From assembly GCF_001517625.2 (NCBI RefSeq), contig NZ_LN999826.1, positions 124,001 to 188,000 of the forward strand: a stretch of DNA of 64,000 nt. Reading direction: 5' to 3'. This DNA comes from Clostridium sp. AT4. Lineage in GTDB: Bacteria; Bacillota; Clostridia; Lachnospirales; Lachnospiraceae. The notes beneath the pieces were generated by a model. It ran no database searches and was not told the DNA's origin. It was given only the letters and a program-made list of their open reading frames with translations. Numbering within the stretch: the stretch's first letter is position 1; every line of letters begins with the position of its first letter. Below are positions 429 through 63,149 of this stretch, in pieces. The translations under genes and the position numbers were made by a program.

Positions 429-460
429 AAAAAGAGTCTTGACAAATCAGGGCTCTTTTT
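429..460 (+). terminator. Terminator-like inverted repeat after the MATE gene
   Basis: AAAAAGAG at 429-436 pairs with CTCTTTTT at 453-460, giving a stem with a T-run on its 3' side. It could end the MATE transcript. It overlaps the consensus promoter at 439-467, so one sequence may serve both roles. Confidence 0.45.
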
Positions 461-467
461 GTATAAT
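439..467 (+). promoter_or_regulatory. Consensus sigma-A promoter (TTGACA-17-TATAAT)
   Basis: TTGACA at 439-444 and TATAAT at 462-467 are separated by exactly 17 bp, a full match to the vegetative promoter consensus. Transcription would start near 474. No protein gene follows on this strand until 3553, so the likely product is the RNA at about 474-1100. Confidence 0.8.
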
Positions 468-473
468 AAAGTC

Positions 474-1100
474 AACAAAAGAGAAGAGAACACGAGATAC
501 AAAAGAGAATAAGGAGTTGTAGACAGTCAACTCAATGTAATAAAATCTAAGCAAAGGAGGTACGGACCACCAGAAAGAGAACGTTCGTTTCATTTATAAG
601 CTAAAGTGATTTAGTTATAGATGAAACAGGAAAAGCACTCTGTGAGAGTAACTGCTCATACATAGTACAGACAGATGAAACGGAAATTGATTTAAGAAAC
701 AAAAGAAAGTCCAATCGATTGGTAAAAGAACTGCAGTCTTAAAGAAACGAAAGAGAATGTCTGTAATAAAAGATGGGAACAAGCAGATGATCGTATTTTC
801 AAAGTGATCCATAAGCGTATCAAAGGCAATAAATGCCCGGTCTGGTGATATGACGAGAAAGTATCATCAGGACGGAGAGAGATACCGGATCAAAGAAAGA
901 AAAGCAAGGTGGAAAATAGATCCGAAGCAAGTGAATATACAAAAGAGAGCAGAAGAAAACCAGAGTGGATACAATTAAATATAGAGTCACAAAAGAAACA
1001 ATTGTTTCGAAAGAGAGGCTTGGTCCAATGGACGAGATAGTTAAAAGACGGATATCGTAATCGAGAACGTGGTTAGTCAAAGATTCGATATCCGTCTTTT
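474..1100 (+). ncRNA. Candidate large structured non-coding RNA (~630 nt)
   Basis: The stretch has a perfect promoter, no convincing ORF on either strand, and a strong terminator at its end. It is GA-rich with many local stems: 514-519/528-533; a long hairpin 587-627 closed by a GTGA (GNRA-type) loop; a long-range helix 666-673/758-765; 825-828/834-837; an 11-bp hairpin 840-850/862-873 with one bulge; 886-891/919-924; and GTCC/GGAC at 1023-1033. A 12-bp palindrome CCAATCGATTGG sits at 711-722. Length and organisation fit the class of large ornate bacterial RNAs found in Firmicutes (ROOL, OLE, GOLLD); ROOL is my first guess from size and host, but I cannot match a covariance model by eye. Overlapping ORFs on the minus strand look like chance reading of AT-rich sequence. 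Confidence 0.6.
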
Positions 1101-1107
1101 GTTGTAT
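1043..1107 (+). terminator. Intrinsic terminator of the candidate large RNA
   Basis: A 15-bp perfect stem (1043-1057 with 1086-1100, AAAAGACGGATATCG and its complement) encloses a 28-nt loop and is followed by a T-containing tail. The loop is longer than usual, so the stem may also be the closing helix of the RNA. Confidence 0.65.
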
Positions 1108-21970: not shown

Positions 21971-22024
21971 TTGCTTATACGGACCGGGGAGGCCGTAAAA
22001 ATCTTAAGAGAGAGGAGAAAAAGT

Positions 22025-25000
22025 ATGGAAGGACAGAAAAGACCAAGGGTGTTTCTGCAGAAGCGTTATAACACCCAAAAGCGTTTCCTGGCGCTGATGC
22101 TGGCGTTCGCGATGATCTTTACCAGTGTGGGTACAGATCTGAACGTGGCCTATGCGGCAGAAGGAAACAGAGTCGACTTCGAGATCTACGGAGCAGATCT
22201 GGTGGAAGCCATCAATGATGCAGTAGAAACCCAAAGCCCGGTGACAGCGGATGATCTGAACTTTACCAATGGAGCCATTGAAAAGTTCGATGCCCTGTTC
22301 TTTGGCGAGGGCAAGGTCTACGAAGTATTTCCCCCGGTGGAAGGCGGAGATATGGACGCAGAAGTAAGAGTGTTCGTTCGTCTTCCTGAGGATGCCGATG
22401 ATATGTATATGGTCACAGGCGATGAGGAAGTCATCTTCTTATACATAAATAACGGAGAAGACACCATTAGCTGTTCCACAAAGATCATCCGCACGGTAGA
22501 TGGGGAAGAAAAGGTCAAGAGCACCAAGCGGATCACAGTCAAGAGCTATGAAGACAAATTTGGTGAAGAAGAGAGCAATATCATTTCAAAGTCGGAAGAA
22601 ACATTACCGGCTGTGCCTGAAACAAGTGCTCCGGAAAGTCAGCCTGAGGAGACCCCAGCCGAAACGCTGATCCCAGCCGAGACTACAGCTCCTGAGGAAA
22701 CGGAAGCTCCCGATGCAACGGAAGAATCTTCTGAGACAGAAGAAACAACCGAGGCGCCGGAGAGTACAGAGGCTCAGGAAACAGAAACCTCCGAAGAAAC
22801 AAAAGAAGAGACCACTGAGGCTGAAACAGAAGCTACAGAGGCAGAGAAAGAGGAGACAGAGGCTCCTGAGGAAACCGAGGCACCAGAGATAGAAGCTGAT
22901 GAGGAAAAGTCTCAGGATGATTCCGAAGTAACACTTTCCTCTATTTCCCGTCATCAGGTACCGGTAGTAGCTGTGAAGGAAGAGACAGCTCTGACCGAAA
23001 AAGAGGAAGTTTCCGAAACAGAAGCTGAAAAGGAAACTGAGGCTGAGACCGAGGAAAAGGAAACCGAGGCTGAAGAAACTGAGAAGGAAACCACAGCTGC
23101 TCCTGAAAAAGAGACAACGGCCGCTGAGGAAACCACTTCCAAAGAAACAACCGCAGCGCCGGAGGAAAGTACAGAAGCAACAGAGGAAACCTCCACAGAG
23201 GCAGAAAGCAGTGAAGAGACCACAGAGTCTGAGGAAACCACAACGGCTCCTGAAACGCAGGAGACAGAGGAAACCACAGAAGCTGAGACCACAGCACCTG
23301 CTGAAACAGAGACCACAGCGCCTGCCGAGACTGAGACTCAGGCACCCGTTCAGCCTGCAACTCCAGCTGAACCGGAAGAGGGAAACAAGCCCGCAGCCAC
23401 AGATACCGACCTGGTTGGTATGGGATGGTGCAGTACGGCGAAGGCGTATACGACAACAGTAAAAGCGCTGAAGCTCACTCCGGATATGTTTACCAAGGGT
23501 ACATATAGAGTTGAGGTTTTTCATATTCTTGAAGACGGCGAACGTACATATGGAAAAACAAAGCTTCTCACATTCAGAGAAGATGATTTTACAGATGGTC
23601 TTTTAAATCTTGAAGCGTATGAGTATGAAAAAGAAGGCATGGAGCTTCAGGAAGCAGCTATGCCGGTTCTCACTGCGGATGATTTTCAGGAGACAGAAGG
23701 GTGCTACGAATGCGCACTTGAAGTATACTATCAGGTATCGGAAGGATATCATATAGTAGAGCGCATGGAGGGAGATTCTGAATCACAGAATATAGATACA
23801 TTTTCTGCAGTATACGTAGGCGATCTGGATGATATTGATATCGTGCCCGATGAAAATAAACTGATCGTTAAGGTGAATTTCCTGGATAAAGCCAGCGGTA
23901 CACCTCTGATGCAGTCTCATGCATTTGAAGTAACAGCAGATGAGGAAAATAAATTCCCGGTTGAATATGAACTGCCTGTAATTGATGGCTATACACCATG
24001 GGTTGCTCCTGATTCTGATTTTGTGATTGAGGATAATATTCTTAAAAATGTAAATGATATTACAGAGGCAGGAAAGATCATTGTAGATGTACTGTATGAG
24101 GCAGGAGATGTTGAGTATACAGTAAGACATATGGTACAGAATTTGAATGATCCCGAGAAATATGATCTTAAAGAAACCCAGACATTAACCGGTAAGGTGA
24201 ATGGCTTAACCGGTGCACAGCCTCTTTCAATCGATGGATTTACTCCTCAGGAGATCAGCCAGCAGAAGGTTGCAGAAGGTGTTGTAGTTGAGGTTAAGTA
24301 TGATAGAAACGAATATACCCTGTTATACGATACGACAGGAGGCTCTTATGTTCCATCTGTAACAGCAAAGTATGAGGCAGAGATAACTCTGGCTGATGGA
24401 AATGATGTGCCAAAGAGAGAGGGATATACCTTTGACGGCTGGTATCTGGATGCAGACCTGAAGGAAAAGGCAGATTCGACTCTTCGCCTGACAGAAGACC
24501 AGACCGTATATGCCAAATGGAAAGGTACATTGGTCGGTTATAAGGCTGTATATCTGACAGAAAATGCAGATGATGATAATTATTCATATGCAGGAACGGT
24601 TGATTTACGGGCCATTTCAGGTACAACAGTACAGGCAGATGGTGAAACCAAAAAACCACAGGGATTTGATACAGAACATTTTAGCTTTAAAGAGTCTACC
24701 AGTGAGGTTGTTGCCGCAGACGGAAGTACGGTGATTGTTGTAAAGTATACCAGAAAGCAGTATACAATTACGTTTTTAGGAACGGCTACTGGAAGAAAAG
24801 AACTGGTATGTGAATTGCGTGAACATACACATGAGGAACCATCACAGGGATTTTTTAACTGGGATGAAGGATGCTATAAATTAACCTGTACAAATAAGTG
24901 GCACTCTCATACCAGACAATGCTTCAGCGCAGAACCTGTTTGTGGTAAGGTAGAACATACCCACACAAATAACTGCTATGAGTGGAATGGCGGACACGGC

Positions 25001-28000
25001 GATCTCACAATTACAGCCAAGTATGAGCAGTTTATTGGAGATCAGTGGAATGCTTTGGTTGGTCCTGGAACAGAGTGGGAGGGTTCTAACTGGGAGTGGC
25101 TGAATGGTCATTATACTGGTTATCAGTCGACAATGCCAGGACAGAATATGCCAATTTCTACAGGTAATATAGGTGGATATACCAAAATGGTATTAAAGTA
25201 TTACCTGGAAGATCTCGGCGGAACTGTCAAATATAAAGGCAAGACATTTTCAGAAATGACCACGGTTGTTTTAAAGCTGTCAAGTGGAGCTTATCCTACC
25301 TATGAGGAAGAATTTTTCGTAATTGACGGTTATGAGAGATTCGGCAGTAATGTTTCTCCGTGGGAAGATGGTGATAAAAATGGATCTGACAGAGGACATT
25401 GGGCAAAAGGAGACAATGAATTCTACTATACTAAGGCTGATTATCAGCTGGAACTGGTTAACGGAGATCAAACAAATACGCATACCGTTCCATACAAGAA
25501 CGACATCACCCAGTATTTAGAAGAACCGGAATATAATCCATATGGTGACGGAACCTTTGAAGGTTGGTATCTTGATCCGGAGTTCACAGAAGCCTATGAC
25601 GGCGATTACACAATGCCGAAGGGACTGGTTCTCTATGCAAAATGGAATCCAGTTTCCTATGAAGTAAAGTTTGTTGACTCTGAAGATGTAAATACGGTAT
25701 ATGGGACTCAGAATGTTGTACGTAATGGCAAGGTTAAAGCATTTATTCCTGAAAAACCAGGTTATATCTTCAAGGGATGGTATACCGATCAGGAATGCCA
25801 GAGTGCATTTGACTATGCAGCTCAGATTACAGAGAATCGTACTATTTACGCAAAATGGCAGCAGTCCACGACAACTACCTACACCGTCAAACATCAGACA
25901 TCAGATGGAACCGTGATTGAGGAAGAGGCACCAAGAAGCGGAAAGGTAGGAGTAACTGTAATTGCAGAAGCGATCACGCCTACAGGAACATATGCCGGAT
26001 ATGTGCCGGATGCTATCAGTAAAACACATACACTGAAAGCAGATTCTTCTGAAAATGTAATTGTATTTACTTATACAAAAGAAGGAGAACTCAACTATAA
26101 AGTTCACTATAAGTATAAAGATAAAGTTATTGCAGAAGACGGACCTTTTACAAGTGAAGCGCATACGATTAAGGTAAATGCCAATATTAAGCGGATTCTT
26201 CCGCTGGGATATAAGATTGAGAACGATCAGATATTCCAGAATGTAGAGCTTACTGCTGGAGAGAACATTGTAGTATTTAATCTGGTTCCCGCAGAGTATA
26301 AGATTACATATGAGCTCGATGGCGGAACAGAAACAACGAATCCTTTAACTTATAAGCCTATTGAGATTCCAGAAAGTGGATTAAAGCTTAATAATCCGGT
26401 AAGGGATGGATATAAGTTTACTGGTTGGGAGCTTGTGGTAGGAGAAGCAATCAATGGTGAGCATGATCCATTAAACACCGTTATTTTGCCAGGCAGTTAT
26501 GGAAATCTTACATTTAAGGCGAACTGGGAACGTAATGAGGCTGCATTGACGATTGAGTATGTAGATGACAGTGCAGAGCCAAAGACCTTAAAGGACGCAC
26601 ATAACGAGACAGTGACTATTGGCGATTCCTATGATGTGAACGATTTTATTGATTCAAGCATAGAGTACGAGGGTCACAATTATACTTGGTTAAGAACGGA
26701 TGGAGAGACACAGGGAATCGTAGAAGGCGATATTTCAATTACAGCTGTTTATACTCTGGATGATAATGGAAATACGATTCCGGATAAAAATGAAACACCA
26801 TACAGCATTACATATGCGGCAGGTGAGCATGGAACTGGTACTGAAACAGTTGTAGCAGAAAACCAGATGCCTGATCTCCAGGTAACATCACTTCCAACTG
26901 TATCTGAAGATGGAAAGTCTGTAATGTTTGATGGTGCAGCCATTATAACTGCTGAAAACGGATATAAGTTTGGCGGTATGACCGTCAGCTGGAATCCGGA
27001 AGAAGGCGGAAAGTTTGTGGAGTATGAGCCAAAAGATGGATCTGCAGTCACAAGCATCATGGCAAAGAACATTGGAGAGGAACTGAGCAATGTTACAAAC
27101 ATTACTGTAACAGTTAACTTTGTAAAAGATGATGCGGCAGTTAATCAGTTAAGCTATACGGTAGAGCATATTTATGATGATACTGCTGAAGTATTTAGGA
27201 CAGAGACTGTTACACAGGATGTATGGGTAAATGATCCTCAGGTTCTTCAGGTGAAAGACATTACGGTTCAGGCCGAGGATGCCGAATATATCTATGACAG
27301 CAACAGTCATGCTTTTGCAGTGATAACTGACCCAGCTGATCCGAGTATTGTTACTGGATTGACAGGCAGCGGAACCATTGAAAACGATGGAAAGATTCAG
27401 GTAGTATATTCCAAAGATGAAAATGGGGATCATGTACCGGATAAGTATCAGACAGAAGTATACTTTAAGGTAGTAAACGGAAGCTGGAATGATGAAACTA
27501 ACACCCAAAAGGTTCAGGTTGTTACTTTAATGACAGGTGGAACGTGGGATGATAATGGCAGCTATACAGTTACCGGGGATATTGTTCCAGGTGTAGGAGA
27601 CAAGGCCAATAAAGGTTATAAAGCTGGAGATTGGGATAGGACTCCGTTTGATGCTGTTATTACAAAAACAACCAGTGCAGAGGAGCGTACATTTACTTAT
27701 ACCTATACAGAAGATCAATCTGTAACAAAAAAGCTCAGCTATACAGTAGAGCATATTTGCAGAGACACAAATGAATTGATTGGTGAAATTGAAACGGTTA
27801 CAGAAGAGGTATGGATAAATAGCGCAGATACTACACTAGACGTTAAGGATATTACATTAAGGTCAAAAGATGGTTATACCTATGACGGAAATAGTATGGA
27901 TCTGGAGCGTTCTGAAAATACACTGCTTAACGGTGGAAAAACAATTCAGAATGGTGAAACGATCACAGTATATTATGATGTTGATGTAATTGGCCCAGAT

Positions 28001-30004
28001 GAAATTCCGGATAAGTATCAGGTAATCGTTCGCTATGAAGCAGTAAATGGAACTGTAAGCATTACAGAACCTGTTTATGTAACAATTTATAAGCATACGT
28101 CTTCAAATGAAAAAGAGTTGGAATACGCTGAACCTGGAACTGAAGGTGCATATGGAACTCTAAGTAAAGACCAGATTGCTGACGCAGCTCCAATTGAGGG
28201 ATATGATCCATCTACAGAGCAGTGGAAGGCAAATGGAGAACCGGCAGAAAAACCAACCATAGAGACACAGATTACAGAAAATACCGCATATGAAGTTAGC
28301 TTCGGAAAGAATGGATATGTATACGACGTAGTAAAGAGATACCTGGATGCAAACGGAAATGAGGTAGACGCAGTATTTAAGAGCGGAACCGCATTATACG
28401 GCCAGAACATCCTGGAAGCATCTGGTGTGACAGTACTGCAGGAAGAGCTTTACAAGGAAAATCTTTACGAGTTAGTGAAGGTAGAGGGAGCCGATCGTCT
28501 GATTACCAATGACCCGAATGCAAACCATGTAGAGATTATCTACCAGCAGAACGCATATGTATACGACGTAGTAAAGAGATACCTGGATGCAAACGGAAAT
28601 GAGGTAGACGCGGTATTTAAGAGCGGAACCGCATTATACGGCCAGAACATCCTGGAAGCATCTGGTGTGACAGTACTGCAGGAAGAGCTTTACAAGGAAA
28701 ATCTTTACGAGTTAGTGAAGGTAGAGGGAGCCGATCGCCTGATTACCAATGACCCGAATGCAAACCGTGTAGAAATCATTTATCAGCAGAAGAATTATAA
28801 CTATGAAGTAGTGAAACACTATGAAGGTTTAAATGAAACTGCAGTTGAATCTACAAAGGGTACAGCACCATATGGAACAGGAATTCTGGAAATGTCAAAT
28901 GTGGATGTTTTACAACATGAGACATACAAGGATCATACATATGTGCTGGTAAAGGTGGATGGAGCGGATAAACTGGTTACTAACGATGAAACCCAGAACC
29001 GTGTAGATATTTACTATACTTTGGATGAGAAGGGTGGAACAGATCCAACAGACCCAACTAACCCAGACGGACATCCGGACAAGTATCAGACCATTTTCCG
29101 CTATGTAAGTGCGGATGAAACAATGGGAACTGTTAGTGTAGAAGAAGAAGTTCATACCTTTACGGATGAAGCCGGAAATTACATTGATAAGTATCCGATC
29201 AGCCCAGAGGGTGCAACCGCACAGGCCCTTGGAGGATTTGCCTTTGATTACTGGGTAGATACTGAGGGAAGAGATTACACTGCGGATATGCAGATTATGA
29301 AATCTCAGACATACTTACAGGATACCACCTTCACCGCCTACTTCGCAGAAGATAAGATCGGTGAGACAGATCCTGAAAATCCAGATCCAAACCATCCGGA
29401 TAATATCCCAGATTACCGCCAGATCACATTCCGTTATATATCTGAGAATCCAAGCTATGGAACTGTAAACGGAGCTGTAGTGGAAGTTCGTACGATCGTA
29501 ACGGTGACAGAAGGCGAAAACGGATACCAGGTTCTTGAAACCAAATCTGTAAATCCATTTGCAGATGTAACCGTATCCGCAAACGGCAGATACAGCTTTG
29601 AACGCTGGTCTGACGGAACAACTAATTTTGCAAACACAGATGAAATCTCTGCAGCAAGCTTTGATGCGGACACCACGTTTACCGCGTACTTTGATTACAA
29701 TGGCGGCGGAAGCAGCGGTGGCGGCGGAGGCGGTGGAAACGGCGGCGGCCCAAGCGGCAGCGGCGGTGATTCTACCGGAGGCCCTGGCGTGACAGTTACG
29801 ATTGATAACCCAGAGGTTCCATTAGCTTCCGTACCGGGAACAGGCACAGGTGATGTAATCTCCATCAATGATGGTATGGTTCCAATGGCTCCTCTGCCAA
29901 AGACAGGCCAGACCACAATGAAATCTACATTACTGATGGCGTTCTCAGGAATCCTTCTTGCAATTACTGGTTTAAGTAAAAGACGCAAGGACGAAGAAAA
30001 CTGA
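22025..30004 (+). CDS. Giant LPxTG surface protein with InlB/MucBP-like repeats
   Basis: The 2659-residue protein starts at 22025 (AGAGAGGAG upstream). It has a long basic signal peptide cleaved near AYAA (residue 45), a folded N-terminal part, a Glu/Thr/Pro-rich linker (about 190-460) likely to span the wall, then many beta-type repeats. Some match InlB B-repeats (GYTFDGWYLD...VYAKW), others MucBP-like domains (YTVRHMVQNL, YTVEHIYDD, YTVKHQTSDG). A His/Cys segment (nt 24797-24990) carries ELREHTHEE, WHSHTRQC and EHTHTNNCYE. Two near-identical 80-residue repeats lie at nt 28315-28794, then a Gly-rich hinge and the sortase motif LPKTG at residue 2624, a membrane helix and SKRRKDEEN. It is probably a cell-wall adhesin for mucus or host glycans. 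Confidence 0.92.
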   Translation: MEGQKRPRVFLQKRYNTQKRFLALMLAFAMIFTSVGTDLNVAYAAEGNRVDFEIYGADLVEAINDAVETQSPVTADDLNFTNGAIEKFDALFFGEGKVYEVFPPVEGGDMDAEVRVFVRLPEDADDMYMVTGDEEVIFLYINNGEDTISCSTKIIRTVDGEEKVKSTKRITVKSYEDKFGEEESNIISKSEETLPAVPETSAPESQPEETPAETLIPAETTAPEETEAPDATEESSETEETTEAPESTEAQETETSEETKEETTEAETEATEAEKEETEAPEETEAPEIEADEEKSQDDSEVTLSSISRHQVPVVAVKEETALTEKEEVSETEAEKETEAETEEKETEAEETEKETTAAPEKETTAAEETTSKETTAAPEESTEATEETSTEAESSEETTESEETTTAPETQETEETTEAETTAPAETETTAPAETETQAPVQPATPAEPEEGNKPAATDTDLVGMGWCSTAKAYTTTVKALKLTPDMFTKGTYRVEVFHILEDGERTYGKTKLLTFREDDFTDGLLNLEAYEYEKEGMELQEAAMPVLTADDFQETEGCYECALEVYYQVSEGYHIVERMEGDSESQNIDTFSAVYVGDLDDIDIVPDENKLIVKVNFLDKASGTPLMQSHAFEVTADEENKFPVEYELPVIDGYTPWVAPDSDFVIEDNILKNVNDITEAGKIIVDVLYEAGDVEYTVRHMVQNLNDPEKYDLKETQTLTGKVNGLTGAQPLSIDGFTPQEISQQKVAEGVVVEVKYDRNEYTLLYDTTGGSYVPSVTAKYEAEITLADGNDVPKREGYTFDGWYLDADLKEKADSTLRLTEDQTVYAKWKGTLVGYKAVYLTENADDDNYSYAGTVDLRAISGTTVQADGETKKPQGFDTEHFSFKESTSEVVAADGSTVIVVKYTRKQYTITFLGTATGRKELVCELREHTHEEPSQGFFNWDEGCYKLTCTNKWHSHTRQCFSAEPVCGKVEHTHTNNCYEWNGGHGDLTITAKYEQFIGDQWNALVGPGTEWEGSNWEWLNGHYTGYQSTMPGQNMPISTGNIGGYTKMVLKYYLEDLGGTVKYKGKTFSEMTTVVLKLSSGAYPTYEEEFFVIDGYERFGSNVSPWEDGDKNGSDRGHWAKGDNEFYYTKADYQLELVNGDQTNTHTVPYKNDITQYLEEPEYNPYGDGTFEGWYLDPEFTEAYDGDYTMPKGLVLYAKWNPVSYEVKFVDSEDVNTVYGTQNVVRNGKVKAFIPEKPGYIFKGWYTDQECQSAFDYAAQITENRTIYAKWQQSTTTTYTVKHQTSDGTVIEEEAPRSGKVGVTVIAEAITPTGTYAGYVPDAISKTHTLKADSSENVIVFTYTKEGELNYKVHYKYKDKVIAEDGPFTSEAHTIKVNANIKRILPLGYKIENDQIFQNVELTAGENIVVFNLVPAEYKITYELDGGTETTNPLTYKPIEIPESGLKLNNPVRDGYKFTGWELVVGEAINGEHDPLNTVILPGSYGNLTFKANWERNEAALTIEYVDDSAEPKTLKDAHNETVTIGDSYDVNDFIDSSIEYEGHNYTWLRTDGETQGIVEGDISITAVYTLDDNGNTIPDKNETPYSITYAAGEHGTGTETVVAENQMPDLQVTSLPTVSEDGKSVMFDGAAIITAENGYKFGGMTVSWNPEEGGKFVEYEPKDGSAVTSIMAKNIGEELSNVTNITVTVNFVKDDAAVNQLSYTVEHIYDDTAEVFRTETVTQDVWVNDPQVLQVKDITVQAEDAEYIYDSNSHAFAVITDPADPSIVTGLTGSGTIENDGKIQVVYSKDENGDHVPDKYQTEVYFKVVNGSWNDETNTQKVQVVTLMTGGTWDDNGSYTVTGDIVPGVGDKANKGYKAGDWDRTPFDAVITKTTSAEERTFTYTYTEDQSVTKKLSYTVEHICRDTNELIGEIETVTEEVWINSADTTLDVKDITLRSKDGYTYDGNSMDLERSENTLLNGGKTIQNGETITVYYDVDVIGPDEIPDKYQVIVRYEAVNGTVSITEPVYVTIYKHTSSNEKELEYAEPGTEGAYGTLSKDQIADAAPIEGYDPSTEQWKANGEPAEKPTIETQITENTAYEVSFGKNGYVYDVVKRYLDANGNEVDAVFKSGTALYGQNILEASGVTVLQEELYKENLYELVKVEGADRLITNDPNANHVEIIYQQNAYVYDVVKRYLDANGNEVDAVFKSGTALYGQNILEASGVTVLQEELYKENLYELVKVEGADRLITNDPNANRVEIIYQQKNYNYEVVKHYEGLNETAVESTKGTAPYGTGILEMSNVDVLQHETYKDHTYVLVKVDGADKLVTNDETQNRVDIYYTLDEKGGTDPTDPTNPDGHPDKYQTIFRYVSADETMGTVSVEEEVHTFTDEAGNYIDKYPISPEGATAQALGGFAFDYWVDTEGRDYTADMQIMKSQTYLQDTTFTAYFAEDKIGETDPENPDPNHPDNIPDYRQITFRYISENPSYGTVNGAVVEVRTIVTVTEGENGYQVLETKSVNPFADVTVSANGRYSFERWSDGTTNFANTDEISAASFDADTTFTAYFDYNGGGSSGGGGGGGNGGGPSGSGGDSTGGPGVTVTIDNPEVPLASVPGTGTGDVISINDGMVPMAPLPKTGQTTMKSTLLMAFSGILLAITGLSKRRKDEEN
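28315..28794 (+). repeat. Tandem 240-bp duplication inside the surface protein
   Basis: Two copies with a period of exactly 240 bp (80 residues, beginning YVYDVVKRYLDANG) differ at only a few bases over the first ~210 bp (for example at 28372/28612 and 28498/28738). A third, diverged copy (YNYEVVKHYEGLNE) follows from about 28795. The near-identity indicates recent duplication or gene conversion. Confidence 0.92.
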
Positions 30005-43862: not shown

Positions 43863-43904
43863 AGCCTCGATCCCTGCCTGCTGAGGGAAAATGGAAAACA
43901 GAAC

Positions 43905-44108
43905 AGAAAAAGGTGCCCGGATTCCATGGGAAGTCCGGGATAATAGGGAAATGGGTGGAAAGCCCATGCGGTCCCGCCGCTGTAAAGGAAGAGTTACCGG
44001 ATGCAGAAAGCTGTTAAAATAGGAACAGGCTTTTGCGAAACGCCACTGCATGAATCTATGTGGGAAGGAGCCGGTGATGAGGATGCCTGAGCCAGAAGAC
44101 CTGCCTTT
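43905..44108 (+). promoter_or_regulatory. Cobalamin riboswitch
   Basis: The stretch shows the AdoCbl riboswitch landmarks in order: AGGTGCC at the start, AATAGGGAA, GGTGGAAAGCCC, GCGGTCCCGCCGCTGTAA, the B12-box GCCACTG, GTGGGAAGGAGCC, and GATGAGGATGCCTGAGCCAGAAGACCTGCC. It lies upstream of cbiMNQO, so cobalamin binding should shut off cobalt uptake. Confidence 0.93.
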
Positions 44109-44200
44109 TTCGGCGTGATTATAAAGGCTGCGGAGCACAGCTTTTTATAATAGATACCCTGAAAAGGGAGGAAGGCGGAGCATCCGCTTTCTTATCATGT

Positions 44201-56739: not shown

Positions 56740-57867
56740 ATATCACTTGATAGAAATATCAAGGAACTGGTACAGAGGTTGAAAAACAAATCCTTTAAGC
56801 CACTTCCGTCACTGAGGGTATATATACCTAAAGGAAATGGAAAGAAACGACCATTAGGGATTGCTTCCTATGAAGATAAGATTGTATAAATGGCAGTGAA
56901 GAAAATACTGGGAGCTATTTATGAACCGAGATTCCTAAACTGCATGTATGGATTCAGACCGAATAGGGGGTGTCACGAAGCAATAAAAGAAGTATATCAA
57001 CGGATAAGCTATGGAAAAATCAGCTATATCGTAGATGCCGATATCAAAGGTTTCTTTGACCATATCGACCATGATTGGATGATGAAGTTCCTTGAATGGA
57101 ATATACAGGATAGGAACTTATTGTGGCTAATACGTAAATACCTTAAAGCAGGAATAATGGAGCAAGGAAAATTCGAGCCAACAGAGGAAGGTTCGGCACA
57201 AGGCTCAGTAATGAGTCCGATGCTTGCAAATATATACATGCATCATGTGCTGACGCTGTGGTTTAAGCTGGTGGTGCAAAGGGAAATGCAGGGAGAGTGT
57301 TTTCTCGTCAACTTTGCGGATGATTTTGTTGCAGGATTTCAATATAAGTCAGAAGCTGAAAGATACTATAAAGAATTAAAGGAACGAATGGAAAAGTTTG
57401 GACTGGAGCTGGAAAGTAGTAAAAGCAGACTGATTGAATTTGGGAGATTTGCAGAGCAGAATCGTAGAGCAAGAGGAGAATGTAAGCCTGAAACATTTGA
57501 TTTTCTGGGATTTACCTTCTACTGTAGCAAAACTCGAAAGGGAGGTTTCGTGCCAAAGGTACAGACTTCAAGAAAGAAGTTTGAGCAAAAGGTTAGAGCA
57601 TACAAGAACTGGATTTACGATAATCGAAATCGACCAATGCGAGAAATAATTAAAGAGTTGAATGTAAAACTAATTGGACACTATCGGTATTATGGTGTTA
57701 CATGGAATTTTCGGAAGATAACAACATTCCTGCATAGAGTACAACAGTTTCTATTCAAAGCCATGAATCGGAGAGGTTGTAGACGGGCATACACATGGAA
57801 TGGATTTGTGGAAATGCTCAAGTATTACCCGTTAGCAAAACCTAAAACGTACTATTGTTTATATTGA
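56740..57867 (+). pseudogene. ltrA: Group II intron reverse transcriptase/maturase, truncated with a nonsense codon
   Basis: The frame enters from the IS edge as NIKELVQRLKNKSFKPLP...RPLGIASYEDKIV, then a TAA at 56887 replaces the usual Gln codon, and the reading continues MAVKKILGAIYEPRFLNCMYGFRPNRGCHEAI to 57867. Motifs FADDF (RT active site), QGSVMSPMLANIYMH and the thumb/X region (HYRYYGVTWNFRKI) are present. About 100 N-terminal residues are missing. It is not functional as it stands. Confidence 0.85.
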
Positions 57868-57885
57868 AGCGAATGTTACTATGAG

Positions 57886-57957
57886 GAGCCGTATGCGGGA
57901 AAGCCGCACGTACGGATCTGTGAGGGGCTAAGATTGAGAGGTCTTAGTCTACTCGAC
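57886..57957 (+). ncRNA. Group II intron domains V and VI
   Basis: Domain V (57886-57918) has the expected GAGCCGTATGCGG ... CCGCACGTACGGATC hairpin. Domain VI follows with CTAAGA/TCTTAG pairing and ends CTACTCGAC near the 3' splice site. Confidence 0.8.
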
Positions 57958-61568: not shown

Positions 61569-63149
61569 ATGCCCTGTCCACACAACGAAATCACGATTGT
61601 TCAGCGCAGCCAGCGGCAGTCTGCGGTTGCCGCCGCTGCTTACCAGAGTGGCGAAAAGCTGTTCTGTGAATACGACCAGCAAGTGAAGCACTACCCAGAA
61701 AAGCGTGGTATCGTCCACAATGAAATCCTGCTCCCGGCAAATGCCCCGCCGGAGTATGCAGACCGCAATACCTTATGGAACGCCGCCGAAGCGGTGGAAA
61801 AACAATGGAATTCCCAGCTTGCAAGGCGGTGGGTGCTTGCCATTCCCAGAGAGATACCACCCGACCTGTATGCTGTCCTTGTCCGGGAGTTTTGTGAACA
61901 GCAGTTTGTTTCCAAAGGCATGATTGCTGATTTTGCAATTCATGACCCCAATCCGCCGGGACACAATCCCCACGCCCATGTCCTGCTGACTATGCGGGCA
62001 ATGGATGAGCATGGGAAATGGCTTCCCAAGAGCCGCAAGGTTTATGACCTTGACGAGAATGGGGAACGGATAAAGCTGCCATCCGGCAGGTGGAAAAGCC
62101 ACAAGGAGGATACGGTTGACTGGAACGACCAGAAGTATTGTGAAATCTGGCGGCATGAATGGGAGGTCATCCAGAACCGCTATCTGGAAGCCAATGACCG
62201 CCCGGAGCGTGTGGACTTGCGTTCCTATGCCAGACAGGGGCTTGATATAGTCCCCACTGTCCATGAGGGAGTTGCTGTCCGGCAGATGGAAAAGCGAGGT
62301 ATCCAGACGAATATCGGCAACCTGAACCGGGAAATCAGAGCTGCCAACAATCTGATGAAGTCCATCCGGCAGCTTATCCAAAACCTTAAAGGCTGGATTA
62401 CCGAGCTGGGCGAAAAACGGAAAGAGCTGCTTGCACAAAAGGCGGCGGAGGAAGCAACACTTCTTCCCAATCTGCTGATGAAGTATATGGAGATACGAAA
62501 GGAAGAACGGAAGGACTGGACAAGGGCTGGACAGAACCGGGGGACTTCACAGGACTTAAAGGCAGTCAGCGAAGCCCTGTCCTATCTCCGGCAAAAGGGG
62601 CTTTCCACTGTGAAGGACTTAGAAGCATTTCTGGAATCTTCCGGGAAATCAGCCGCAGATTACCGCAATCAGATGAAGCCAAAGGAAGCCCGCAGCAAAG
62701 TGATTGACGGGATTCTTGCCAGCCGGACAGACTGCAAGGAATGTAAGCCTGTCTATGAGAAGTACCAGAAGATATTTTTTAAGAAAACAAAGGAGAAATT
62801 CAAACAGGAACACCCGGAGGTTGCCCGGTATGCGAAAGCCGCCGCCTACCTTGCCAAGCACCCGGACGATAAGGACAGTACCCAAAATGAGCTGCAAGAG
62901 GAGCAGGAAAAACTTCTCAGCGAAATCGCAGAGCTGAAAACACCGCTGACCGAGGTACAGGCTGATTTGAAGAAACTGCGGGACATCCGCTACTGGGCAC
63001 GGAAAGCCACCCCCGGCACAGAGGAAAGCAAAGAGCCGCCCAAGAAACAGCCTATCAAAGAAGTCTTGCAGGATAAGGCTGACGAGAAAAAAGCACAAAG
63101 AACTGTCCCGGCACAGACGAAACACAAACAACAGGATATGGAACTTTAA
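61569..63149 (+). CDS. mobA: MobA/MobL (MobQ-type) relaxase
   Basis: The 526-residue protein nicks oriT and pilots the strand in transfer. The N-terminal relaxase domain (about 1-240) has the early catalytic region QRSQRQSAVAAAAYQSGEKL and the HUH metal motif HNPHAHVLLTMR. The C-terminal half is a charged coiled-coil. GAAAGGAGGGA precedes the ATG. The family is shared by mobilisable plasmids and ICEs of Firmicutes. Confidence 0.92.
   Translation: MPCPHNEITIVQRSQRQSAVAAAAYQSGEKLFCEYDQQVKHYPEKRGIVHNEILLPANAPPEYADRNTLWNAAEAVEKQWNSQLARRWVLAIPREIPPDLYAVLVREFCEQQFVSKGMIADFAIHDPNPPGHNPHAHVLLTMRAMDEHGKWLPKSRKVYDLDENGERIKLPSGRWKSHKEDTVDWNDQKYCEIWRHEWEVIQNRYLEANDRPERVDLRSYARQGLDIVPTVHEGVAVRQMEKRGIQTNIGNLNREIRAANNLMKSIRQLIQNLKGWITELGEKRKELLAQKAAEEATLLPNLLMKYMEIRKEERKDWTRAGQNRGTSQDLKAVSEALSYLRQKGLSTVKDLEAFLESSGKSAADYRNQMKPKEARSKVIDGILASRTDCKECKPVYEKYQKIFFKKTKEKFKQEHPEVARYAKAAAYLAKHPDDKDSTQNELQEEQEKLLSEIAELKTPLTEVQADLKKLRDIRYWARKATPGTEESKEPPKKQPIKEVLQDKADEKKAQRTVPAQTKHKQQDMEL

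Follow-up and report, generated by a model that had tools for sequence, protein, structure and literature searches.

A stand-alone structured RNA of Lachnospiraceae that may engage ribosomes on binding sites largely without start codons

What does a bacterium transcribe from a strong-looking promoter that is followed by no gene? This question is raised by the left end of a 64,000-nt stretch of the genome of Clostridium sp. AT4 (contig NZ_LN999826.1, positions 124,001 to 188,000; hereafter the window). An initial annotation, made from the letters alone, had proposed a large structured non-coding RNA in a gene-free region of 810 bp. The gap measures 813 bp (308-1120), between the end of an upstream open reading frame (ORF) at 307 and the end of a convergent radical-SAM ORF at 1121, and is indeed free of ordinary genes. 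We found that its RNA belongs to a widespread family in which modules resembling ribosome-binding sites, most of them without a start codon, precede a very short ORF at the terminator. Its sequence suggests that this RNA serves to engage ribosomes and not to encode a protein.

Homologues were collected in three ways. With the RNA as a blastn query, matches were found in 16 of the 16 other sampled genomes of the genus, and short ones in 51 of 145 genomes elsewhere at E 0.01, many of the weakest possibly being chance. A 19-nt pattern of the most conserved part retrieved at least 119 stretches. Among the 80 pattern titles listed, we read 73 as Lachnospiraceae or unspecific Clostridiales, Eubacteriales or Ruminococcus names, and the rest were a Planctomycete, two Spirochaetaceae contigs, an Oscillospiraceae bin, bins named Bacillus and Paenibacillaceae, which do carry the RNA, and an uncultured bacterium. 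A sequence model of the conserved part (R1) matched at least 186 of 397 sampled genomes of the family, which to judge from these titles is Lachnospiraceae. Outside the family it gave only weak matches, in 7 of about 375 class-sample and 2 of about 174 order-sample genomes (E 8e-5 to 1e-2), which is close to chance at the E limit used. The RNA body is highly variable outside Enterocloster, the genus to which the window belongs or comes close, and three reduced members (L024, L044 and L050) consist of little beyond promoter, modules, micro-ORF and terminator. In all counts of promoters, loop B, units, slots, stops, spacing, ORFs and the strict micro-ORF rule given below, nine loci were excluded as chance matches or as lacking any sign of the RNA (L022, L029, L037, L038, L072, L094, L109, L133 and L142); the tally of A-module variants used the same exclusions, except that L022, L029 and L133 were kept.

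The limits of the predicted transcript follow from its signals. The annotated full-consensus promoter and 15-bp terminator were both confirmed (Table 1), the terminator arms 1043-1057 and 1086-1100 forming 15 of 15 pairs with 28 nt in between; an automated terminator scan, which allowed loops of 3-8, did not list this stem. Allowing at most one change per hexamer, 116 of 133 homologous RNAs have a promoter of the same kind, with both hexamers perfect in 76 of the 116, so that the promoters of the family are, on sequence, strong. Judged by promoter and terminator positions, the shortest RNA (L024) measures about 200 nt and the longest (L111) about 1,050 nt. The longest plus-strand ORFs in 17 aligned RNAs have 16-50 codons, and their positions differ. 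Minus-strand ORFs of up to 106 codons were considered as well and rejected, since their positions also differ between members. The earlier statement that the region holds no credible ORF is therefore correct for ordinary genes, but it misses a conserved micro-ORF, which lies at 1028-1060 in the window.

The best conserved element of the family is module A, in which AAAGGAGGU is followed by ACRGWCC, a purine and then a slot of three nucleotides. AAAGGAGGU is the full 9-nt complement of ACCUCCUUU, the 3' end of 16S rRNA in this genome, and was found once in the 64 kb of the window. Its computed pairing with the 16S tail amounts to -13.2 kcal/mol, compared with -4.3 kcal/mol for the weak hairpin (GGxGGU/ACCxCC) that the module could form instead. 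The geometry is that of a translation start: a Shine-Dalgarno (SD) sequence, 9 nt, and the slot where a start codon would stand. What occupies the slot falls into two classes, a start codon (NUG) or CCN/ACM. The 19-nt pattern fixes CCRCC in one unit per locus, and with those units left out the pattern-fetched loci gave NUG in 42, CCN in 9 and ACM in 6 units, 57 of 57 in these classes. In the loci fetched by blastn or R1, 56 of 56 units had NUG, CCN or ACM, the retrieval itself favouring CCRCC. Comparatively, only 14.6% of 851 SD-like sites outside the RNA carried such a slot. When locus L190, whose units differ in the core, was included, 205 of 208 units fitted if no more than one mismatch was allowed, and 224 of 234 if two were, the misfits being partly chance matches. 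L190 is absent from the 57- and 56-unit slot counts and from the counts of unit number, spacing and the 169 stops. We read the A modules, from their sequence, as probable ribosome-binding sites with an erased start codon.

Two further regularities accompany the slots. In units without NUG, codon 3 past the slot is the first in-frame stop in 120 of 169 cases, compared with 18 and 3 in frames +1 and +2; among exact units the count is 87 of 128, against 9.2 by shuffling. The L190 units with AAG or AAA in the slot also keep this stop. Internal units that are live, with NUG in the slot, encode MRT, MRS, MKS, MKT, MKK, MDR, MGT, MGH and MG. Where neighbouring units lie within 90 nt of each other, their distance is 49-57 nt in 32 of 44 cases. 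An initiating ribosome covers roughly -35 to +22, and thus this spacing fits one initiating ribosome per unit. By the strict count (n = 143), 74 RNAs have one unit, 51 have two and 18 have three or more, and tandem units were seen in L187, L190, L044, L050 and L071. The array of L190 (about 684-1017) comprises at least six units some 54-57 nt apart, with the slots AAG, AAA, CCG, AAA, AUG and AUG and a third-codon stop in all but the last; it may show the loss or the gain of start codons.

The last module, motif C, is mostly live, its start codon being kept. In most members the same layout leads up to or into the terminator: an SD sequence and, roughly 7-12 nt on, NUG, with a stop a few codons later. 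These are the marks of a minigene, namely an SD sequence, a start codon and a stop within few codons. By a strict micro-ORF rule, 82 of 101 testable RNAs have such an ORF, against 9.2 expected from mononucleotide shuffles (120 RNAs were considered, and 19 without a terminator by the rule were left out). In 79 of the 82, the end of the stop lies within a span that begins 2 nt ahead of the terminator stem and extends 7 nt into it. Most of the 19 RNAs that fail the rule show an ORF with the SD spelled GAGGC or GAGGA; the window copy is among the failures, its SD reading GAGGC. In L042, L049, L111 and L131 the micro-ORF was not visible at the chosen terminator. Among 30 loci fetched later, 12 were left out (7 whose motif the pattern did not match and 5 without a terminator), and the rule held in 13 of the 18 testable ones (1.5 expected), including 7 of 9 that were previously unseen (0.9 expected). 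When the first base of the start codon was left free, 84 sites gave A in 45, T in 33, G in 4 and C in 2. This set was taken without exclusions, and by eye seven of its sites lie outside the RNA (L037, L047 at 799, L064 at 752, L066 at 817, L096 at 598, L101 at 445 and L137 at 447); these seven include both C sites.

The encoded peptides follow M(D/E)xxx* in one clade (e.g. MDEIV* and MDSIV*) and MIExSx* (e.g. MIEISV*) or MTEGFK* in another. Isoleucine is written with synonymous codons, and all three types of stop occur. The second residue is conserved, mostly D, or I in the other clade, and residues 3-5 and the length vary freely, even within Enterocloster (DEIV, DKAV, DGIV, DTVH, DDET and DDVV). 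Because the residues past the second vary so freely, it seems that translation rather than the peptide is conserved.

Table 1. Positions of the RNA and its parts in the window
Feature	Position	Strand	Description and basis
Sigma-70 type promoter	439..467	+	TTGACA-17-TATAAT, 12/12 consensus positions
Transcribed RNA	474..1107	+	Predicted to start 7 nt past the -10 box and to end in the U-rich tail; z -6.1; 17-member alignment A1
5' hairpin GAGUUG...CAACUC	514..533	+	Helix 1; 2/6 pairs changed on both sides; missing in 4/17 aligned RNAs
Module A	553..571	+	AAAGGAGGU, spacer ACGGACC and A, with CCA at 570 in the slot instead of a start codon; anti-SD complement, family conservation
Long hairpin	587..627	+	Helix 4, GNRA cap GUGA (606-609); 4/13 pairs changed on both sides
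Self-complementary CCAAUCGAUUGG hairpin	711..722	+	Helix 6; letters in 15/17 rows
Module B	836..876	+	Helix 7, hairpin with conserved 11-nt loop UGACGAGAAAG (851-861); 6/14 pairs changed on both sides
SD-like sequence of the last module (motif C)	1011..1018	+	AAGAGAGG; alignment and homologues
Micro-ORF	1028..1060	+	MDEIVKRRIS*; 10 codons in the window, 5-9 codons in most homologues
Intrinsic terminator	1043..1107	+	15-bp stem with a loop of 28 nt, followed by a U-rich tail; the micro-ORF ends within this feature

The RNA as a whole is strongly structured. Positions 474-1110 fold with -146.7 kcal/mol (z -6.4, 20 shuffles), and the z of 474-1106 (60 shuffles) is -6.1, or -5.0 after removal of the terminator. 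Five further members, also with terminators removed, gave z from -2.7 to -5.0, and none of 60 shuffles folded as well. The RNAalifold consensus of the 17-member Enterocloster alignment (A1) has 66 pairs, and 97.7% of its cells pair. Both partners have changed in 20 pairs (9.0 in shuffles) and in 58 cells (14.2 in shuffles, with none of 500 as high), and a control in which the partner strand was slid gave at most 10 such cells. This support comes mostly from the long hairpin 587-627, hairpin B (about 836-876) and the terminator (helix 9), in which 7 of 14 pairs have changed on both sides. The A-module hairpin is invariant in the alignment, so covariation is uninformative there; the CCAAUCGAUUGG hairpin has no both-side change, and its pairs are broken in a single row (L017). 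The exact sequence of loop B is present in 53 of 133 RNAs; every one of the 53 has at least four closing pairs, and 12 different stems occur among them.

Structural details of the initial annotation fared unequally. The GNRA-capped long hairpin was corroborated, with a stem that covaries and a GNRA cap in the minimum free energy fold of 11 of the 17 aligned RNAs. An 8-bp long-range helix (666-673/758-765) does exist in the window but is not conserved, since in alignment A1 it is complete in the window only and nearly so in the closest relative. Compensatory base changes of the kind expected from a structured RNA do occur in homologues. The RNA is nevertheless not purely non-coding: the homologues also have the conserved micro-ORF and the modules resembling ribosome-binding sites, mostly without start codons.

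Several other stretches of the RNA are conserved. The terminator loop (1058-1085), with GAACGUGGUUAGU, is near-invariant in 12 of the 17 aligned RNAs, far beyond what a terminator needs, and its GUGGU could pair with ACCAC of module A. The stretch 974-985 reads AUUAAAUAUAGA in the window and UUAAUAUAGA or UUCAUAUAGA elsewhere, and it precedes the last module in many members.

Comparison of sequences shows that the RNA is conserved, structured and stands alone on the chromosome; it also shows how the modules are built and spaced, the bias of their slots and the signature of the micro-ORF. What these findings may mean can be put as follows. A stand-alone chromosomal gene would give a structured RNA that engages ribosomes. 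At most slots CCN (or ACA/ACC) would let the 30S subunit bind by base pairing and keep a normal initiation complex from forming, and the in-frame stop three codons on would cut short any leaky initiation. The last module, which usually keeps its start codon and encodes 5-9 codons ending at the terminator, would be translated for the engagement and release of ribosomes and not for its peptide. The RNA would thereby act in trans, keeping 30S subunits or initiating ribosomes occupied. We infer with fair support that ribosomes bind the RNA, and weakly, by analogy, that it limits or buffers them as 6S RNA does RNA polymerase. That a stand-alone structured RNA docks ribosomes at sites of which most have no start codon is a reading to which, from the sequences, we give a little less than even chances. 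Its full form, a ribosomal counterpart of 6S that traps 30S on sites with CCN or ACM for a start codon, with close sites spaced for one initiating ribosome each and a live micro-ORF last, is more doubtful. To our knowledge, these would be the first natural arrays of start-less ribosome-binding sites.

Several observations weigh against ribosome docking in this form. Most of the RNAs have only one or two recognisable modules, which is a small capacity for a sponge. The three AAG/AAA slots of L190 show that the two-class rule of start codon or CCN/ACM is not absolute, and the third-codon stop is weak within Enterocloster and absent from module A of the window. A plain frame control of the micro-ORF is modest: a stop within 10 codons was found in 70, 53 and 29 of the 84 sites in frames 0, +1 and +2. 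Four large Enterocloster genomes have a shorter paralogue (L182-L185), with promoter, one A module, long hairpin, loop B and terminator, in which no micro-ORF is visible. In addition, pairing with the anti-SD leaves the invariant spacer and loop UGACGAGAAAG unexplained, which suggests a further partner. An extra partner for the spacer and loop B is likely. A search of both for complementarity to rRNA gave a single 8-nt match in 16S, where about 0.3 is expected by our estimate, and none that was convincing.

In a rival reading, module A would be the site of a regulatory protein, its likeness to a ribosome-binding site would be secondary, and the RNA would be a protein sponge, with CsrA as the obvious candidate. 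The near-invariant ACRGWCC and CCRCC and the hairpin GGxGGU/ACCxCC do exceed what an SD sequence needs, ACGGAC and AUGGAC contain GGA, and CsrA is encoded in this genome. However, CsrA was found above the cut-off in only 19 of 38 RNA-bearing genomes, those without it including single-contig ones, and the module variants ACAGUCC and ACAGACC lose the GGA. Since half of the bearers examined lack CsrA, we rejected a CsrA sponge as the conserved role; any other protein would leave the slots with start codon or CCN and the in-frame stops unexplained. We consider a protein sponge unlikely on the whole. The same free variation of residues 3-5 and length that was described above, Enterocloster included, makes it very unlikely that the RNA is the mRNA of a very small peptide with a signalling or regulatory role (fMDEIV, fMDSIV, fMIEISV and similar ones). 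The conserved second residue and the variation in start codons and synonymous codons would suit such a peptide, but a micro-ORF does not need hundreds of nucleotides of conserved structure. That structure, with its covariation, conserved loops and several self-complementary hairpins, is what would be expected if the folded body itself were functional, perhaps as an RNA-only assembly or a ribozyme, and modules A and C served processing or stability. The variable body outside Enterocloster and the reduced members leave the modules as the common denominator, and a large ornate RNA of this type seems highly improbable.

The position of the micro-ORF raises the case of leader-like attenuation, in which its translation beside the terminator would set termination and control the length of the RNA or a neighbour. 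Its stop lies near the start of the stem in nearly all RNAs that pass the rule, and in the window the ORF spans the whole 5' arm of the terminator. We tallied neighbours at the 119 pattern-fetched loci, a few chance loci included. The next gene (in view at 100 loci) shares the strand of the RNA in 55 and lies opposite to it in 45; for the previous gene (103 loci) the figures are 62 and 41, respectively. The neighbouring families differ between groups. Such varied neighbours on both strands speak against a leader of one gene, and with a convergent next gene in the window and varied ones elsewhere there is no common target of attenuation. Attenuation is therefore quite unlikely, and the role of leader or attenuator of a neighbour was rejected for want of a consistent neighbouring gene.

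How, then, does an RNA that would dock ribosomes compare with known systems? The initial annotation had likened it to ROOL, OLE or GOLLD, which are also large structured intergenic bacterial RNAs of unknown function. No covariance model of Rfam 15 matched the RNA region of the window, or the RNA in 17 homologous loci, at the gathering score, and at up to E = 5 region 400-1180 gave seven weak matches, with none to ROOL, OLE, GOLLD or raiA. The likeness thus did not hold, whereas the alternative that it had mentioned, a new class, is supported by the absence of this large structured stand-alone RNA from Rfam 15. The present RNA further differs from these three in its micro-ORF and modules resembling ribosome-binding sites, and in having no phage, plasmid or viral match at the sensitivity used. 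No viral contig carried the 19-nt pattern either, and we rejected a phage, plasmid or viral origin because such collections held no match at this sensitivity. In the literature searched, which included PMC11109978, PMC2864571, PMC8040213, PMC6429828, PMC4782308 and PMC8708949 apart from their supplementary tables, the RNA is not described. The supplement of PMC8040213 holds 3161 intergenic candidates, and an unnamed one may overlap the RNA.

Bacterial minigenes, of which lambda bar is an example, join an SD sequence to an ORF of few codons, and the present RNA would work most like an array of minigenes set in a structured RNA. Another minigene is mg2 of axe-txe (PMC8708949). The family differs from such minigenes in its many start-less modules, and in that the modules form part of a conserved structured RNA that has a promoter and a terminator to itself. 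The likeness to 6S RNA (RF00013) is one of analogy only: a stand-alone RNA would imitate the template of a core machine and occupy it. 6S RNA imitates the open promoter for RNA polymerase, whereas the present RNA would imitate ribosome-binding sites. RF00013 was not matched in the region, and an ordinary 6S lies elsewhere in the genome (G000:C7:1747692-1747868). Like tmRNA (RF00023), this is a structured RNA with a short ORF, but the ORF here has its own SD sequence and start codon. RF00023 was unmatched, no tRNA or tmRNA was found in the window, and an ordinary tmRNA lies elsewhere in the genome (G000:C7:560431-560770). ToxI, a type III antitoxin RNA, consists of tandem short repeats between a promoter and a terminator. 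That arrangement recurs here, but with repeats that resemble ribosome-binding sites. No constant gene that might be a type III toxin follows the terminator, the neighbours being varied and that of the window a convergent radical-SAM gene; ToxN models were not searched. Upstream-ORF attenuators such as the ilvB motif of PMC11109978 also combine an SD sequence, a very short ORF and an intrinsic terminator. Their downstream gene of consistent identity on the same strand is not found here, where many families follow.

Lachnospiraceae are prominent gut bacteria, and a strongly promoted RNA gene without an Rfam 15 match occurs in nearly half of the sampled genomes of this family. If ribosomes are indeed held on start-less sites, this would be a new way of setting translation capacity. 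Should the mechanism prove wrong, a conserved RNA class in want of an explanation is still gained, and with it a group of ORFs that, at 5-9 codons, are far shorter than gene finders usually accept.

Some minor observations concern single loci and the rest of the window. In one genome the RNA occurs twice, at a distance of 852 bp (L067, reverse strand, 2952 and 3804), and in L026 a TwoAYGGAY RNA (1162-1327) lies on the other strand, about 500 bp from the family member. In the window, a 2677-codon ORF with Listeria-Bacteroides repeats (Flg_new; 21971-30004) probably encodes a giant surface protein, and a cobalamin riboswitch (43894-44122) precedes the cobalt-transport genes CbiM and CbiQ. A mobile element seems to occupy the right end of the window, which has a reverse-transcriptase ORF (56890-57867), a group II intron domain (RF00029) just after it at 57884-57957 and, further on, a MobA/MobL relaxase gene (61569-63149).
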